From: a virus
DNA: 29,796 bases
Strand: one strand, 5' to 3'
Virus record (IMG/VR): IMGVR_UViG_3300046808_000057
Location: 1-29,796 of that record
Made by a program: the position numbers and the translations under genes. How positions within the stretch are numbered: position 1 is the stretch's first letter; every line of letters starts with the position of its first letter. The notes beneath the pieces were generated by a model. The model was given only the letters and a program-made list of their open reading frames with translations. It searched no databases and had not been told where the DNA came from. Shown here one piece after another: positions 7,903 through 29,796 of the stretch.

Positions 7903-8618
7903 GCAATCCTTTGCGCTACGATAATCGCAGAGGCGATTGATGGCCGCGCATACGGAACCACCTGAGCAGCAGTGTATGCCAGCGAAACTGTCGCACTATC
8001 TACAGCGCAAACGACTTCGATGTAATTAGTAGCAGAGACCTGAACAACGCCCTGAACTTGGAAGAACATAGACCCGCCATCCGCGAGCTTTGGCACGCTT
8101 GTTTCGCTGGCGGAATACGCGATGTCAGTACCATTCAAACGGAACCAGATGTCGCCGACGTGGTCTGAAGTATCTGAGTTTTCAAACTGGCAATGGAACG
8201 CGATCTCATAAGTTCCAGCAGCCGCGAAAGTAACCCGAGTCGGATTGCCACTACCGTCGTTCTCAATGGTGATGCCAGTCTCAATGCCTGCGACATCAAA
8301 CTCAATAGTGGCTGGAGTGTTCGCAGAAAACGTAACGTCTGCAGAATTGTAAGCAATGCAGTGAGCGCGCCCAGCTATGTCGTTATAAGGAATCGTGGCG
8401 CTCGCCGTCATTGCCGACGTGCCATTGCCCTTGACGTAGCCAGTGAGTGTAGAAGCGCCCGTGCCGCCAGTTGGTACGGTGCGGACGTTCGTGGCAGTGG
8501 CCGCGATGTCAGAGGCCGCAACCTTACGGCTATTCGTGCTCTGAACGATTTCGAGAAGTTCAGTACCGGCCAGAGGTGTAGTGGCTGGCGCTAAGTCTGT
8601 GATCTTTACGTTTGCCAA
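7899..8618 (-). CDS. Short tail fibre/receptor-binding protein (TTG start)
   Basis: The start is a TTG at 8618 with GGAGG five bases upstream. It is confirmed by resemblance of its N-terminus (MANVKITDLAPA...SDIA) to that of the 1358-aa fibre (MSDIKISDMQPW...LSQL), a probable virion-anchor segment. A GGTG module follows at ~residues 50-60. Then comes a ~150-residue beta-rich C-terminal domain with alternating hydrophobics (TIEFDVAGIETGITIENDGSG, YEIAFHCQFEN), compatible with a TNF/C1q-like jelly roll. It lies next to other adhesins and likely contributes to receptor binding. The specific receptor cannot be told. Confidence 0.75.
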   Translation of the reverse strand: MANVKITDLAPATTPLAGTELLEIVQSTNSRKVAASDIAATATNVRTVPTGGTGASTLTGYVKGNGTSAMTASATIPYNDIAGRAHCIAYNSADVTFSANTPATIEFDVAGIETGITIENDGSGNPTRVTFAAAGTYEIAFHCQFENSDTSDHVGDIWFRLNGTDIAYSASETSVPKLADGGSMFFQVQGVVQVSATNYIEVVCAVDSATVSLAYTAAQVVPYARPSIASAIIVAQRIA

Positions 8619-8644
8619 ATTAACCTCCAGCGTTTCGTAATTGG

Positions 8645-9313
8645 TTACGCGTCTATAGCATCTTCAGCAGATTCTTTAATACGCTTAATGTAGCTATCAA
8701 AGTCACCCACGAACTTCTTCGTGCCAACGTGTCCGCAGGTCATGTGCGGAGCCAGCCAAAGATCGAAGCCGAGATCCTTCAGCTTGCGGAACATGGCGGT
8801 GTCTTCCGAGTAAAGCTCGCCGTCTACGATCTCCACGTTGCAGACCATGCGGCCAGTCTTGCCGTTGTTAGTGTAGGGCTCGCTCATGTCCCAGACAGCG
8901 TGAACAGCATCCTTGCTCAGCTTCACGAAGCCAGTGCCGAGCCCTTCGCACTTGATCATGCCATTGTCGTGGATGGTCAGGTCGCGCGTCTTGGCGACAT
9001 ACAGCTCTTCGTCATCCGTCTTCTTGCGGGCCGTGCCACCGATCACATGCTCTTCCCGCTCAAGCATCTCCATGATCCACTCGGGGTTCCATTCCATGTC
9101 CGCGTCGATGAAGATCATCGCGTCATAGTCACCCTCAACGGCGAGCTTGAACAGGTCATTGCGCGCGCGCTGGACGAGGGCATCGTAGGACATGAAGACT
9201 GGGTGCAAGAAGATCCCCATCTCCTGCGCGATCCGCACGGAGTTCACGAGGCTGTTGACGTACCAAACGTCAAGCTGCCCAGTGTGCGCAGGAGTGGCGA
9301 TCAGGACTTTCAT
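8645..9313 (-). CDS. GT-A fold glycosyltransferase in tail locus
   Basis: A 222-aa protein with an N-terminal nucleotide-binding pattern (MKVLIATPAHTG) and a DxD motif at residues 70-72 (FIDADMEW). This motif binds metal and nucleotide-sugar in GT-A glycosyltransferases. An acidic pair in GELYSEDTAMF (170-171) matches the GT2 catalytic region, and a late GHVG (H195) fits the third metal-proximal site. No membrane helix is present, so a soluble enzyme is expected. It is coupled to the 79-aa gene by TAATG and sits between fibre genes. Possible targets are virion proteins, host surface glycans or DNA; the sequence does not decide. Fold confidence is high, substrate unknown. Confidence 0.8.
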   Translation of the reverse strand: MKVLIATPAHTGQLDVWYVNSLVNSVRIAQEMGIFLHPVFMSYDALVQRARNDLFKLAVEGDYDAMIFIDADMEWNPEWIMEMLEREEHVIGGTARKKTDDEELYVAKTRDLTIHDNGMIKCEGLGTGFVKLSKDAVHAVWDMSEPYTNNGKTGRMVCNVEIVDGELYSEDTAMFRKLKDLGFDLWLAPHMTCGHVGTKKFVGDFDSYIKRIKESAEDAIDA

Positions 9314-25833: not shown

Positions 25834-27372
25834 TCAGTAAAATGCAGCTTGCTCAAGTGGCGTATCGTAAACCTCTTCATATGGGTCTTCCGTATTCGCC
25901 ACCCAGCCCGACTGCTTAATCCGCAAAAACGCCATTGTCATGGTGTCAACCCAGTCCCGTGCATCCGCAGCAGGAAAGGCAACGCATTGCTGCATGAACT
26001 CTTCCGCCCATTTACGCAACTGCTGAAATGTGGGGCCAGCCGCCGGCAGCCACACCCTGCCGTTCTCAATCAAGTCCGTAATCAAACGAACACGCGCAAT
26101 CTTGTCACCATGCTTGTCGGGATTGAACGGCGTCGCCACAATCCCAGCCTTAGCCAAGTCTAATATCAGCATCTGGCCGTTCGCCTTGGCCTCAACCAAG
26201 ATCGTGTCCGGCTTGCGCCCCCGAGAGGGCTTGATCGGCATCTTGTAGTTGTCGTCCCGGTAGTCATTCGCCATGCGCTGGACCATCCGACGCAGCACCG
26301 GCCACTCCGCACGGTCACGCCACGCACTCAGCAAGATCAAATTAGGAATGCCGTTATCGTCGTCAAACACTCCCCACGTCGTGCTCGCGCTGTACGCAGA
26401 AGTCTTATTCGCCGTGAGCGCCGTGTCCCAAGACTGTATAACATACTGGATCTTCGGCGGCTCAGACTGACGCCACCACTTAAACCATGTGCCGTCAATG
26501 ATACCACCAGAGTCCACCACAGGGTTCTGCTGGTACAAAGATGACCACATACGCGCCGTTGTCGACGAACGATTGCGGATCCTCTCGAGGTTTTCCTTGC
26601 TGAACTGCGACTCCCAGAGCGCCTCCCCCGGCTTTCTCCCCAGAGGATCGTCCTCCAGAGCCAGCGCCGGCAGGATCACACGCTCCCACTTCTCACCAGT
26701 CCCGTCGCGCTCCTCCTGATCCAGCATCCCAAAGTGGTCACCCAAGTGCCACCTCGTCCCAATCAGAATGATAGCCGTGTCGTCGTCCACACGCCGCGTG
26801 TAAAAGTCACTGTTGTACCAAGCCCACAGCTTGCGCCTGTGCGAGTCGCTCTCTGCCGCTTCAATACCGGAGAGCAAGTCGTCCCCAATCAGCAAATGAC
26901 CACGACGACCCGTCACAGACGCGCCAACCGCCGTCGCCTTGTACGACCCATCAGACAGCGTCATCCACTCGCCCGCCGCCGTCTTATCCAGCGAAATACC
27001 CGCCTCAGGAAATACCTTCCGGTGCTCGTCCGACTTCATCAGATTGCGCACCTTCAAACCGAAACTGTCCGACAGCTCCTGCGTGTGCGTCGCGCAAATC
27101 AGGTTCTTCTTCCCGTATTTGCTCAAATACCACGCCGGAAAGTGCTGCGATGCCGTGAAGCTCTTCGCATGCCCCGGTGGCATCGATATCATCAGGCGCT
27201 TAATCCGCCCCTCAGCTACCGCCTCCAGCTTCTCACACAAATGCTCAATGTGCTTCGGCGGCTTCAAACCACTCACATACTCAATGTACTTCGCCAAAGA
27301 GTCCACCGCCTCCTCACGAGCCAGCAACTCCTCCATCATCGCCTTCAGGTTGTCAGGATCAGCCTCAGCCAT
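25834..27372 (-). CDS. terL: Terminase large subunit (ATPase/nuclease)
   Basis: I choose the ATG at 27372; a TTG three bases upstream would add one residue. The 512-aa protein shows Walker A MPPGHAKS (64-71), Walker B LLIGDD (160-165) and the coupling motif GTRWH (205-209). The C-terminal RNase H-like nuclease has acidic residues D316 (SWDTA), E394 (LVEAKANG) and D473/D476 (DARDWVD). It packages and cuts DNA at the portal. It overlaps the 82-aa gene by 8 bases. All key residues are present, so it should be active. Confidence 0.96.
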   Translation of the reverse strand: MAEADPDNLKAMMEELLAREEAVDSLAKYIEYVSGLKPPKHIEHLCEKLEAVAEGRIKRLMISMPPGHAKSFTASQHFPAWYLSKYGKKNLICATHTQELSDSFGLKVRNLMKSDEHRKVFPEAGISLDKTAAGEWMTLSDGSYKATAVGASVTGRRGHLLIGDDLLSGIEAAESDSHRRKLWAWYNSDFYTRRVDDDTAIILIGTRWHLGDHFGMLDQEERDGTGEKWERVILPALALEDDPLGRKPGEALWESQFSKENLERIRNRSSTTARMWSSLYQQNPVVDSGGIIDGTWFKWWRQSEPPKIQYVIQSWDTALTANKTSAYSASTTWGVFDDDNGIPNLILLSAWRDRAEWPVLRRMVQRMANDYRDDNYKMPIKPSRGRKPDTILVEAKANGQMLILDLAKAGIVATPFNPDKHGDKIARVRLITDLIENGRVWLPAAGPTFQQLRKWAEEFMQQCVAFPAADARDWVDTMTMAFLRIKQSGWVANTEDPYEEVYDTPLEQAAFY

Positions 27373-27613
27373 CAAACTCTACACCATCCAGCCACGCATC
27401 CACCAACTCGTGCACCTTCTGACGGTTCTTCACCCACGCAGGTACCTCACCCACCGGCCCGTCAAACACCTTAATCCGCGTCTCGTCCGTCAACCACGCA
27501 CGAAAGTCATCACCCTTCGTCAGCGTCAGCGCCACCTCATCACCATCCGAACGCAGCGGCAAACTCCCCTTGCCCGTCAAAAACCCCATCATAAACCCAA
27601 TACTATACCGCAT
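27365..27613 (-). CDS. Hypothetical 82-aa protein between terminase subunits
   Basis: A small protein starting MRYSIGFMMGFLTGKGSLPL, with a short hydrophobic N-terminus followed by charged sequence (LTLTKGDDFRAWLTDETRIKVF) ending acidic. The start lies 1 base after the small-terminase stop, with GGAGG overlapping it. The end overlaps the large terminase. A coupled gene of this size between the subunits may regulate packaging, but no motif supports a specific role. Confidence 0.75.
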   Translation of the reverse strand: MRYSIGFMMGFLTGKGSLPLRSDGDEVALTLTKGDDFRAWLTDETRIKVFDGPVGEVPAWVKNRQKVHELVDAWLDGVEFDG

Positions 27614-27614
27614 C

Positions 27615-28157
27615 TCACCCCTCCTTCACCTCCACATACTCACCCTCAATCAATGCAGGTCGATCACCACTCAGCTCCGCAATCCGACGACGCAACTCGT
27701 CCGTCGTCATCTCGCGCGGCTCAACCGAGTGCGTCACATGAACCGTCTTGTCCAAATATCCCAGCATCTGAGCCTGCACCTTCTTAGCACTAATAGCCGG
27801 CGCAAACGCACCGTCCTCCTTAGCCTGCAAATGCAACGCCTCCAGATCGTCCAAAATCAACTGCAGCGAATACCCACCAGCTAAACGCGCACGACGCTTC
27901 TCGTCCGCATTCACCAACTGCTTCTGAATCGCAATCGCCGCCTGTATCTCAGGCCTAGAGAGATGATACTCCGCCATCACATTCAACGCATAGCGACTGT
28001 CCGTCAAACCAGCTCGGCTGACAGACAACATCTCATCACCAGTCTTCACATACTCGCGAACAAATATAGCGTCCGGCGTCATCTGCGTGTCGCCGTTCAC
28101 ACCGTGCATCACGGTCTGTTCCCACATCTCGTCGTCGGCTTCTTCTAAGTCAGCCAT
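27615..28157 (-). CDS. terS: Terminase small subunit
   Basis: A 180-aa protein with an acidic N-terminus. A helix-turn-helix-like region (~30-80, FVREYVKTGDEMLSVSRAG...SRPEIQAAIAIQ) is typical of Terminase_2-type small subunits, and a later helix (YSLQLILDDLEALHLQAKED) could oligomerise. It recognises the packaging start site and recruits the large subunit, two genes on. GGAG lies six bases before the ATG. It is the first gene of the late cluster, next to a repeat-rich non-coding region that may hold its binding site. Confidence 0.82.
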   Translation of the reverse strand: MADLEEADDEMWEQTVMHGVNGDTQMTPDAIFVREYVKTGDEMLSVSRAGLTDSRYALNVMAEYHLSRPEIQAAIAIQKQLVNADEKRRARLAGGYSLQLILDDLEALHLQAKEDGAFAPAISAKKVQAQMLGYLDKTVHVTHSVEPREMTTDELRRRIAELSGDRPALIEGEYVEVKEG

Positions 28158-28305: not shown

Positions 28306-28329
28306 TAATCGTTACACTAATCGTTACAC
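28306..28329. repeat. Tandem 12-bp repeat TAATCGTTACAC x2
   Basis: Two perfect head-to-tail copies lie at 28306-28317 and 28318-28329. They contain the GTTACA core of the boxes at the right end of the window. Placement ~150 bases upstream of the terminase start suits a regulator-binding site. Confidence 0.9.
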
Positions 28330-28553
28330 CGTATCGATTTCAAAAACGAAAATAAAACACCCCCCGGGTCAGTCTAAAAATCAGGGGGTGGGGGTCTGTG
28401 TGGCGGGGTGGAAATTTCTGGCCGCAAACACGGATCAATGGGGGTGTATACTGTGGGGGATCGCGCCCGCCCGCGCGCGAGTGGGTGGGTGGGGGTGCGC
28501 GCAGGCGCCCGGGGGCACGCTTGGGCATGACGCGCCCGTGACGTGATCACGCG

Positions 28554-28571
28554 GTCAACCGGATGGTTGAC
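28554..28571. promoter_or_regulatory. Operator-like inverted repeat (GTCAACC-ggat-GGTTGAC)
   Basis: Perfect 7-bp arms separated by 4 bases (28554-28560 and 28565-28571). The core GTCAAC/GTTGAC also forms the inverted repeats at 28744 and 29646, though in the opposite arm order here. A binding protein is inferred. Confidence 0.5.
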
Positions 28572-28743
28572 ATCCGCAGGGACGCGCGCGCCTGCACGCT
28601 TGCACGTCATGACGCTTGCATCACGAGGCGACTCGGCGTTTTGCTGCACTGCACAATTGTAAAAATCCGCCAGAAAAATCATCGGCCCAGCGCCCCGAAC
28701 GGCGACCCTAACCCTACGGGTTACAAAAAAAGTTTTCGAAAGG

Positions 28744-28762
28744 TGTTGACCGCCGCTCAACA
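28744..28762. promoter_or_regulatory. Operator-like inverted repeat on a predicted promoter (TGTTGA-n7-TCAACA)
   Basis: TGTTGA (28744-28749) and TCAACA (28757-28762) are exact inverted arms that cover the -35 box of the predicted plus-strand promoter. Binding here would block transcription. It relates to the sites at 28554 and 29646. Confidence 0.5.
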
Positions 28763-28774: not shown

Positions 28775-28780
28775 TAAGGG

Positions 28781-29238
28781 GTCGAGACGGCAAGGTCAGT
28801 CGCTTCCGATTTATCAGACAGCCCGAGTGGCGACATGAAACGGAACCGCACAACCCGTCAGGACATAGTCCTCGCTGTGACGGCGAGATGGAATGCAAGG
28901 TTTCATATACGACAGCTAAAGCTGGACGCTGTCATCATAGCCCCTCTGATCGGGGCTTCCAGCCCATCACTAGTGGACGGAACCATCATTACGCCACCCC
29001 TTTGGGGAAGGAGCGGGTGAGAAGGCCAAAGCTGGTTTGTGGTGGATTACTTCGTAGTGGCCCTACGAAGTAGGGGGGCGCTTGGCAAATCAACAGCGGA
29101 ACGTGTGTTCGAAATCCCCAGCAGTATACAAGGGCTAGGGCAGGGAGGTTCGTGACCTCCTGCCTCCCGAAGGGAGCCTGACCGCTCCTTTCCGGAGGCA
29201 CCGGCATAGGGCCGGTTGCTTTAATGCGGAGCATTATC
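28781..29238 (+). other. Long structured leader (possible non-coding RNA) before the 65-aa gene
   Basis: No ORF with a good ribosome site is visible over ~460 bases. I see perfect or near-perfect stems at 28939-28957 (AGCCCC/GGGGCT), 29048-29072 (10-bp TACTTCGTAG/CTACGAAGTA, 5-base loop), 29140-29163 (9 bp with one bulge), 29164-29176 and 29198-29219 (GCCGG-based). Near 28911-28933, GACAGC can pair with GCTGTC or form a shorter CAGCT/AGCTG hairpin, a switch-like choice. I could not fold any tRNA. Function unknown. Confidence 0.55.
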
Positions 29239-29436
29239 ATGAACGTTGTTCTTCAGATCGAATATACGAAGTATATCGTTGACGCCGCTGATGCCGTGAA
29301 GGTCATGGCAATCCTTAGCGGAGCTACTATCGTCGATCACAATTACGACGACGACGATCAGGCCTACTACAATCCTCGCAAAGCGAACACTGTCATCATG
29401 TCAGTGGAGCCTATTCGGCTCGAGATTCGCGGCTGA
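29239..29436 (+). CDS. Hypothetical 65-aa protein, only plus-strand gene
   Basis: I choose the ATG at 29239 (MNVVLQIEYTKYIVDAAD) because GGAG lies seven bases upstream; an ATG at 29224 lacks such a site. The protein shows alternating strand, helix, strand (IEYTKYIVDAADAVKVMAIL), a DDDD acidic run and a strand at the C-terminus (IMSVEPIRLEIRG). It has no cysteine or membrane segment. It is monocistronic, between a predicted promoter with long leader and a perfect terminator. It may be an early or regulatory protein; no family assigned. Confidence 0.8.
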   Translation: MNVVLQIEYTKYIVDAADAVKVMAILSGATIVDHNYDDDDQAYYNPRKANTVIMSVEPIRLEIRG

Positions 29437-29447
29437 TGAGGCCCGAG

Positions 29448-29480
29448 AAGGGGGTGTAACAAAAGTTTACACCCCTTTTT
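29448..29480 (+). terminator. Rho-independent terminator of the 65-aa gene
   Basis: GGGGTGTAA (29451-29459) pairs perfectly with TTACACCCC (29467-29475) and is followed by TTTTT. The stem starts 14 bases after the stop codon. Flanking A and T bases extend it, so it may also act on the other strand. One arm contains a TGTAACA box. Confidence 0.92.
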
Positions 29481-29602
29481 CCGCAGAAAATCGTCGATTC
29501 CTGCTGCGTTTACACTGAAAGTGTAACAGATGTAACAAAATGTAACGTGGTTTTGTTACGCTAAGAGCCGCAGAAATCCGCCATTTCCTGCTATATGTAA
29601 CA

Positions 29603-29624
29603 ATATCTATAGAAATATAGATAT
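29603..29624. repeat. AT-rich inverted repeat (ATATCTATA-gaaa-TATAGATAT)
   Basis: Perfect 9-bp arms (29603-29611, 29616-29624) around GAAA, followed by more alternating AT to 29631. This is the most easily melted DNA in the window and lies amid the TGTAACA boxes, as a duplex-unwinding element would in an iteron origin. Confidence 0.85.
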
Positions 29625-29645
29625 ATATATAGAGTTACCTATCCC

Positions 29646-29664
29646 TGTTGACAGGAGGTCAACA
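29646..29664. promoter_or_regulatory. Operator-like inverted repeat (TGTTGAC-aggag-GTCAACA)
   Basis: Perfect 7-bp arms with a 5-base spacer. It includes a TTGACA and an AGGAGG in the spacer, but no start codon follows closely. It shares its arms with the site over the promoter at 28744. Confidence 0.6.
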
Positions 29665-29796
29665 TCACATTTCTCTATAGGGCTATATTTCCCGAAATCC
29701 TGTTACATTTGTTACAACGGCGGAAAACTGCGGCTGAGAGCGTAACAATCGTTGTTACACTGCTGTTACATTTGTTACATTTTGGCCGTTTTGTTT

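Follow-up and report, generated by a model that had tools for sequence, protein, structure and literature searches.

The window analysed here is an entire IMG/VR virus contig (IMGVR_UViG_3300046808_000057, 29,796 bases), whose right end falls inside an array of the heptamer TGTTACA and its complement TGTAACA. Our data indicate that this array is probably (about 0.78 by our estimate) an iteron replication origin that works like the Pri-Rep origins of Staphylococcus aureus pathogenicity islands (SaPIs) and phage-inducible chromosomal islands (PICIs). The array is well supported as an origin because of its density, its synteny, its place where early and late genes diverge, its association with primase-helicases and the co-variation of the heptamer with the C-terminal domain of these proteins. 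An earlier note on this DNA had proposed either a replication origin or a master operator. The origin half of that proposal has gained good support, whereas the operator half does not suit the heptamer, which in the window and its closest relatives is confined to the array. Contigs and loci are cited below by L and G numbers.

Density and anatomy of the array

The heptamer occurs in nine exact copies in the window and every one of them lies at 29455-29779. For the whole window 2.2 copies are expected, and nine were reached in none of 100 shuffles. Within the end region 29441-29796 (356 bases) the heptamer is present nine times, whereas the commonest 7-mer did not exceed four copies in 2,000 dinucleotide-preserving shuffles. 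The array is non-random, its density is well beyond chance, and the box is not equally frequent elsewhere in the window. The earlier note had counted about a dozen boxes in both orientations, some at steps of 9-11 bases. This description holds: the stretch 29505-29780 contains eight exact boxes and three that differ at one base (29541 TGTAACG, 29554 TGTTACG, 29741 CGTAACA), and some neighbouring boxes stand 9, 10 or 11 bases apart (29522-29531-29541; 29701-29710; 29753-29764-29773). The ninth exact heptamer (29455) sits within a terminator-like hairpin outside both arms, and this hairpin was not called by a consensus terminator scan.

The array is laid out as an interrupted inverted repeat, in which one arm is followed by an AT-rich core, a 17-bp GTTGAC-N5-GTCAAC palindrome and the second arm (Table 1). 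In L001-type relatives it matches itself on the opposite strand over ~278 nt. The 9-bp inverted repeat of the core had been described as AT-only; the repeat exists, but with one G/C in each arm it is not strictly so. The 40 bases at 29601-29640 are 80% AT, and an AT-rich stretch lies at the matching place in relatives.

The array in related phages

Loci encoding the terminase were examined as relatives, and they show the DNA beyond the end of the window. Related phages have the array at the syntenic position, 2-4 kb upstream of the terminase; the distance is 2.1-3.1 kb for eight close or medium relatives and for L064/L067. The array is 96% identical to that of L001, as against 83-88% for the adjoining noncoding DNA. 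In relatives beyond the reach of DNA alignment a different heptamer is arrayed at the syntenic place, and the AT-rich core between its boxes differs too (Table 1). The array marks the point from which early and late operons run apart in those long contigs that were examined. The cumulative GC skew of long relatives is minimal at or near the array (~2 kb off in G005), a pattern that is confounded with gene orientation. Of the three outcomes that the earlier note had named as refuting its proposal, none was observed. Direct search found no DNA homologues of the window in cultured phages, and likewise none of L155, and a literature search with the heptamer string returned unrelated papers only. 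As a separate observation, G005 (L222) has at 28400-28690 of its contig an origin-like region that mixes two kinds of iteron, GGTTACS and GGAACNG-like boxes.

The earlier note had also tied the array to the control of the late genes through a GTTACA tandem repeat 150 bases upstream of the terminase. Such a repeat exists, but its unit, TAATCGTTACAC, does not contain the heptamer. It is present about twice in the window, once in L001 and about four times in L003, and was not found in L012. As the unit is a different one and its copy number is unstable in close relatives rather than conserved, the repeat does not link the array to late-gene control.

Association with primase-helicases

The early module of G001 encodes an 818-aa primase-helicase which matches phrog_35358 DNA primase. 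The contig of the close relative L003/L010 encodes the G001-type protein as well (L259; partial, 76% to G001), and the closest relative that extends far enough encodes a TOPRIM/D5-type primase-helicase. The predicted model of the primase-helicase (predicted local distance difference test score, pLDDT, 80) matches the TOPRIM cores of DnaG as well as helicases of the D5 type, one of which is the SaPI5 primase-helicase 7ola_E. Co-variation was followed in 23 primase-helicases of known iteron type. At a helicase-core identity of 72-80%, the C-terminal domains are 85% identical in pairs with the same iteron (15 pairs, all TGTTTCA) as against 70% in pairs with different iterons (72 pairs). Likewise, TGTATGA- and TGTTTCA-type proteins share 89% in the N-terminal region and only 70% in the C-terminal domain. 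These values point to a trend in which iteron type is followed more closely by the C-terminal domain than by the helicase core. In the cultured phages L301-L303, which have distant primases, no heptamer cluster was found in the stretch examined, and the heptamer is therefore not universal even among primase relatives.

The association was also found by a search for TGTTACA arrays that used the DNA pattern and was blind to genes; L314, L428 and L442 came from a stricter pattern of three heptamers. In L127, L142, L155, L182, L188, L314, L428 and L442 the array found in this way is 0-185 bp beyond the 3' end of a primase-helicase gene, and several families of such genes are represented. The array of L142 begins one base past the stop codon of the primase-helicase gene, and arrays directly 3' of such genes are also present at L155/L165 and L127/L152. 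Flanking genes were collected beside arrays with at least six boxes in both orientations, giving 125 genes after dereplication. The commonest Pfam family among them was DUF5906 (10), and Terminase_2 (5), VapE-like (4), D5_N (3), DUF927 (2) and the Cch helix-turn-helix domain (2) were also found. The four commonest PHROG families were all DNA primases. Long TGTTACA tandem runs of nearly the same orientation were seen in bacterial contigs, some of them from Chryseobacterium (L316, L318, L320, L333, L386, L395, L413). Unlike the mixed-orientation origin arrays, these are possibly unrelated repeats.

Elements beside the array

The perfect palindrome between the core and arm 2 has a counterpart with one mismatch at 28745..28761, which may overlap a -35 element. 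Sites of the form GTTGAC-N5-GTCAAC with up to two mismatches number six in L001 and seven in L003; they are placed at the centre of the origin, on the early side, with further sites in the early region, and near the late region. A P22-Cro/YdaS-like gene and the palindromes occur together in L001, L003 and G001, which is what is expected of a Cro/CI-type operator, and this holds for the palindrome and not for the heptamer. In G002-G006 no Cro homologue was detected and no palindrome cluster was found at the array. A Cro-like protein was considered as the binder of the heptamer and is an unlikely one, as G004 keeps a TGTWACA array with neither a detectable Cro homologue nor GTTGAC palindromes at the array.

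A GC-rich element upstream of the terminase (28463-28501) is 90-97% identical over 30-39 nt in distant lineages. It is kept even where the iteron type is another (L248, L264, L267, L050, L078), and is a candidate packaging site or late control element.

The window also encodes a large, strongly covarying structured RNA, which is given here as context and stands outside the origin claim. Four sequences share a fold of 20 helices in which 97.6% of cells are paired. Both sides are changed in 33 of 124 pairs, as against at most five when the partner columns are slid. G-U pairs favour the plus strand. The RNA reads towards the origin, and its closing helix spans the start codon of a 65-aa open reading frame (ORF). 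An alternative local hairpin could hide the ribosome site of this ORF. As the closing helix engages the start codon and this hairpin could act on the ribosome site, the structure suggests a riboswitch-like leader. An Rfam scan gave no family at gathering scores, and its best sub-threshold match was on the other strand from the RNA. A model of one domain of the RNA found a weak further member at L014 3566-3662 (-).

Table 1. Features of the array and its surroundings (positions in the window unless a locus is named)
Feature	Position	Strand	Remarks
Iteron arm 1, late-gene side	29522..29602		TGTAACA at 29522, 29531, 29596; one-off boxes at 29541, 29554; read directly from the sequence
AT-rich core	29603..29634		Candidate DNA-unwinding element; inverted repeat ATATCTATA (29603-29611) / TATAGATAT (29616-29624)
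GTTGAC palindrome	29647..29663		GTTGACAGGAGGTCAAC; perfect, 17 bp; candidate operator of Cro-like repressor
Iteron arm 2, early-gene side	29701..29779		TGTTACA at 29701, 29710, 29753, 29764, 29773; one-off box at 29741
Arm-pairing interrupted inverted repeat	29553..29748		29553-29585 with 29716-29748, 33 nt, 79%; includes GCCGCAG..TCCGCC boxes
Terminator-like hairpin, then T run	29445..29481	+	3' of 65-aa ORF; holds heptamer 29455
65-aa ORF	29239..29436	+	phrog_4367 (function unknown); kept in relatives; reads towards array
Structured RNA, ~470 nt	28775..29245	+	Between palindrome 28745 and 65-aa ORF/array
Structured RNA homologues	L001 8263-8745; L003 8858-9372; L012 687-1170	-
Second palindrome	28745..28761		GTTGACCGCCGCTCAAC; 17 bp, one mismatch; upstream of structured RNA; kept in L001, L003, L012
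GC-rich element	28463-28501		Late strand ..CCACCCACCCACTCGCGCGCGGGCGGG..
TAATCGTTACAC tandem repeat	28306..28329; L003 9808-9866		Upstream of terminase; not a heptamer array
Gene at usual terminase small-subunit position	27615-28157	-	Late operon start
Terminase large subunit	25834-27375	-	Late operon start
P22-Cro/YdaS-like gene	L001 1350-1598; G001 8528-8770	-	L001: PF14549, 2e-14
TGTSACA arrays	L028, L042-L049, L062
TGTTTCA arrays	L051, L054, L076, L077
TGTGACG arrays	L070, L080, L262
TGTATGA arrays	L025, L050, L078, L245
GGTTACS array	G005

Discussion

From the observed anatomy, synteny, primase association and co-variation, we infer the following course of events. The TOPRIM-primase/D5-type helicase, which is superfamily 3 (SF3)-like, would bind the heptamers through its C-terminal domain. 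Helicase rings would assemble on both arms, one per arm, and would melt the AT-rich core. Replication would then proceed outward in both directions, into the early operon on one side and the late operon on the other. The GTTGAC palindrome would have a separate role in transcriptional control, with the Cro-like protein as its probable reader.

Several points weigh against an iteron origin of this kind. The contig ends within the array and carries no primase gene, so the primase is deduced from a relative, and in G001, G002 and G004 the primase gene lies 4.6-17 kb from the array and is not adjacent to it. The pairs behind the co-variation come from related sequences, and their counts, being non-independent, amount to a trend. 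The C-terminal domain modelled alone gave only insignificant fold matches, of which the best was TcpK-DNA, a DNA-bound relaxosome accessory protein (E 0.71). With the reversed heptamer as a control, mixed-orientation arrays were still found in 10 of 50 hits, as against at least 54 of 119 for the real heptamer among the matches listed; the flanking-gene scan covered arrays of the real heptamer. The GC skew was rejected as independent evidence for the origin and is weak evidence, because gene orientation alone could produce the pattern and the noncoding spacer of the window has almost no skew.

It should be noted here that the array could be explained in other ways. It is improbable that the heptamers form a master operator, that is, binding sites of a phage transcription factor by which the two divergent operons, early and late, are switched. 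The array does lie between divergent operons, a Cro-like helix-turn-helix gene is present, and arrays elsewhere also occur near terminase small-subunit genes (the five Terminase_2 genes among the 125), but the heptamer stands at no other promoter in the window or in the closest relatives, flanking genes are most often primase-helicases, and G004 has its array without the Cro homologue or the palindromes. It is the palindrome that behaves as a regulatory element, with several copies in promoter regions, and on sequence grounds a master-operator role probably suits the palindrome and the Cro-like protein better than the heptamer. Less probable still is a partition centromere with iterons in two arms around a promoter. 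The parC site of ParMRC has two repeat clusters around an AT-rich segment, and this likeness is a point in its favour. However, a search that was not exhaustive and used no dedicated profiles recognised no gene resembling ParM/ParR or ParB, either in the contigs studied in detail or among annotated neighbours, and the arrays found by pattern go with primase-helicases and not with partition genes.

That the small terminase recognises the array as a packaging (pac/cos) site is just as hard to credit. The array precedes the terminase genes by 1-3 kb and some unrelated arrays adjoin small-terminase genes, but the GC-rich element described above is a better candidate, and genomes with TGTSACA or TGTTTCA arrays have large terminases ~75% identical to that of the window despite the different heptamers. 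It could also be argued that the heptamer has no phage-specific role and is a general motif, either structural or for a host factor, its association with primases being incidental, as contigs from many phyla contain TGTTACA triplets and some arrays lie inside ORFs. This is very unlikely too, in view of the synteny, the mirrored arms with an AT-rich core, the lineage-specific change of the heptamer and the enrichment beside primase-helicases.

An iteron origin remains the preferred explanation, and a wider idea may be put forward tentatively, though we consider it rather doubtful at present. TGTNACA-type arrays could be a common origin signature of self-loading primase-helicases (TOPRIM-D5, VapE, PrimPol-D5, DUF927/Cch) across unrelated phages and mobile elements, and the heptamer could change in step with the helicase C-terminal domain among members of a single phage family (TGTWACA, TGTSACA, TGTTTCA, TGTATGA, GGTTACS). 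If this is true, there would be a recognition code for phage origins that can be read from metagenomes. The iteron types seen here, five or more in number and each paired with a distinct form of the initiator C-terminal domain, make up a natural data set on origin choice by self-loading helicases, and the array offers a sequence handle for locating origins in uncultured phages.

The array shares features with several known systems. Lambda O and iteron-plasmid origins likewise have iterons and an AT-rich melting region, but there a separate initiator protein recruits the host helicase; neither an O-like nor a Rep_3-type gene was recognised here, though no exhaustive search was made for one. The alpha protein of satellite phage P4 is a primase-helicase with its own repeats as origin, as here, but the P4 repeats are divided between ori and crr. 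Cch2 of the staphylococcal cassette chromosome mec is a D5-type helicase that binds short direct repeats by its C-terminal domain, which is similar, whereas its iterons are 5-nt AAGTG repeats, only three in number and directly downstream of the helicase operon (PMC7581432). The closest likeness is to the (Pri-)Rep origins of SaPIs and PICIs, in which the initiator is a D5/SF3-type primase-helicase (PMC6092414; PMC7581432). Such a protein is encoded in relatives (L259, the PHROG DNA primase, the 7ola fold match) and not in the truncated window. In SaPI Rep and Cch2 it is the C-terminal domain that contacts the iterons, and the proteins apparently bind as hexamers (PMC7581432); the C-terminal domain is also the one that follows iteron type here. 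The SaPI/PICI origin lies just 3' of rep, a placement that is shared by arrays of other phages (L142, L188, L182, L314), whereas here the array is at the early/late divergence, far from the primase gene. The primase module is of the archaeo-eukaryotic primase (AEP) type in SaPIs and PICIs and TOPRIM here, and the candidate Cro-like operator embedded in the origin is a further difference. The genome itself was considered as a PICI, a satellite with int and rpr/stl and without full structural genes, and it is not one, as the window has genes for terminase, portal, capsid and endolysin along with further structural genes. Because the origin is away from rep and the genome is not a PICI, the array is described as working like a SaPI/PICI origin and not as being one. 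An origin of two iteron sets around an AT-rich region was called unique to PICIs among known bacterial replicons in 2018 (PMC6092414); the same layout is seen here in tailed phages that encode structural proteins themselves, as well as in many further contigs.
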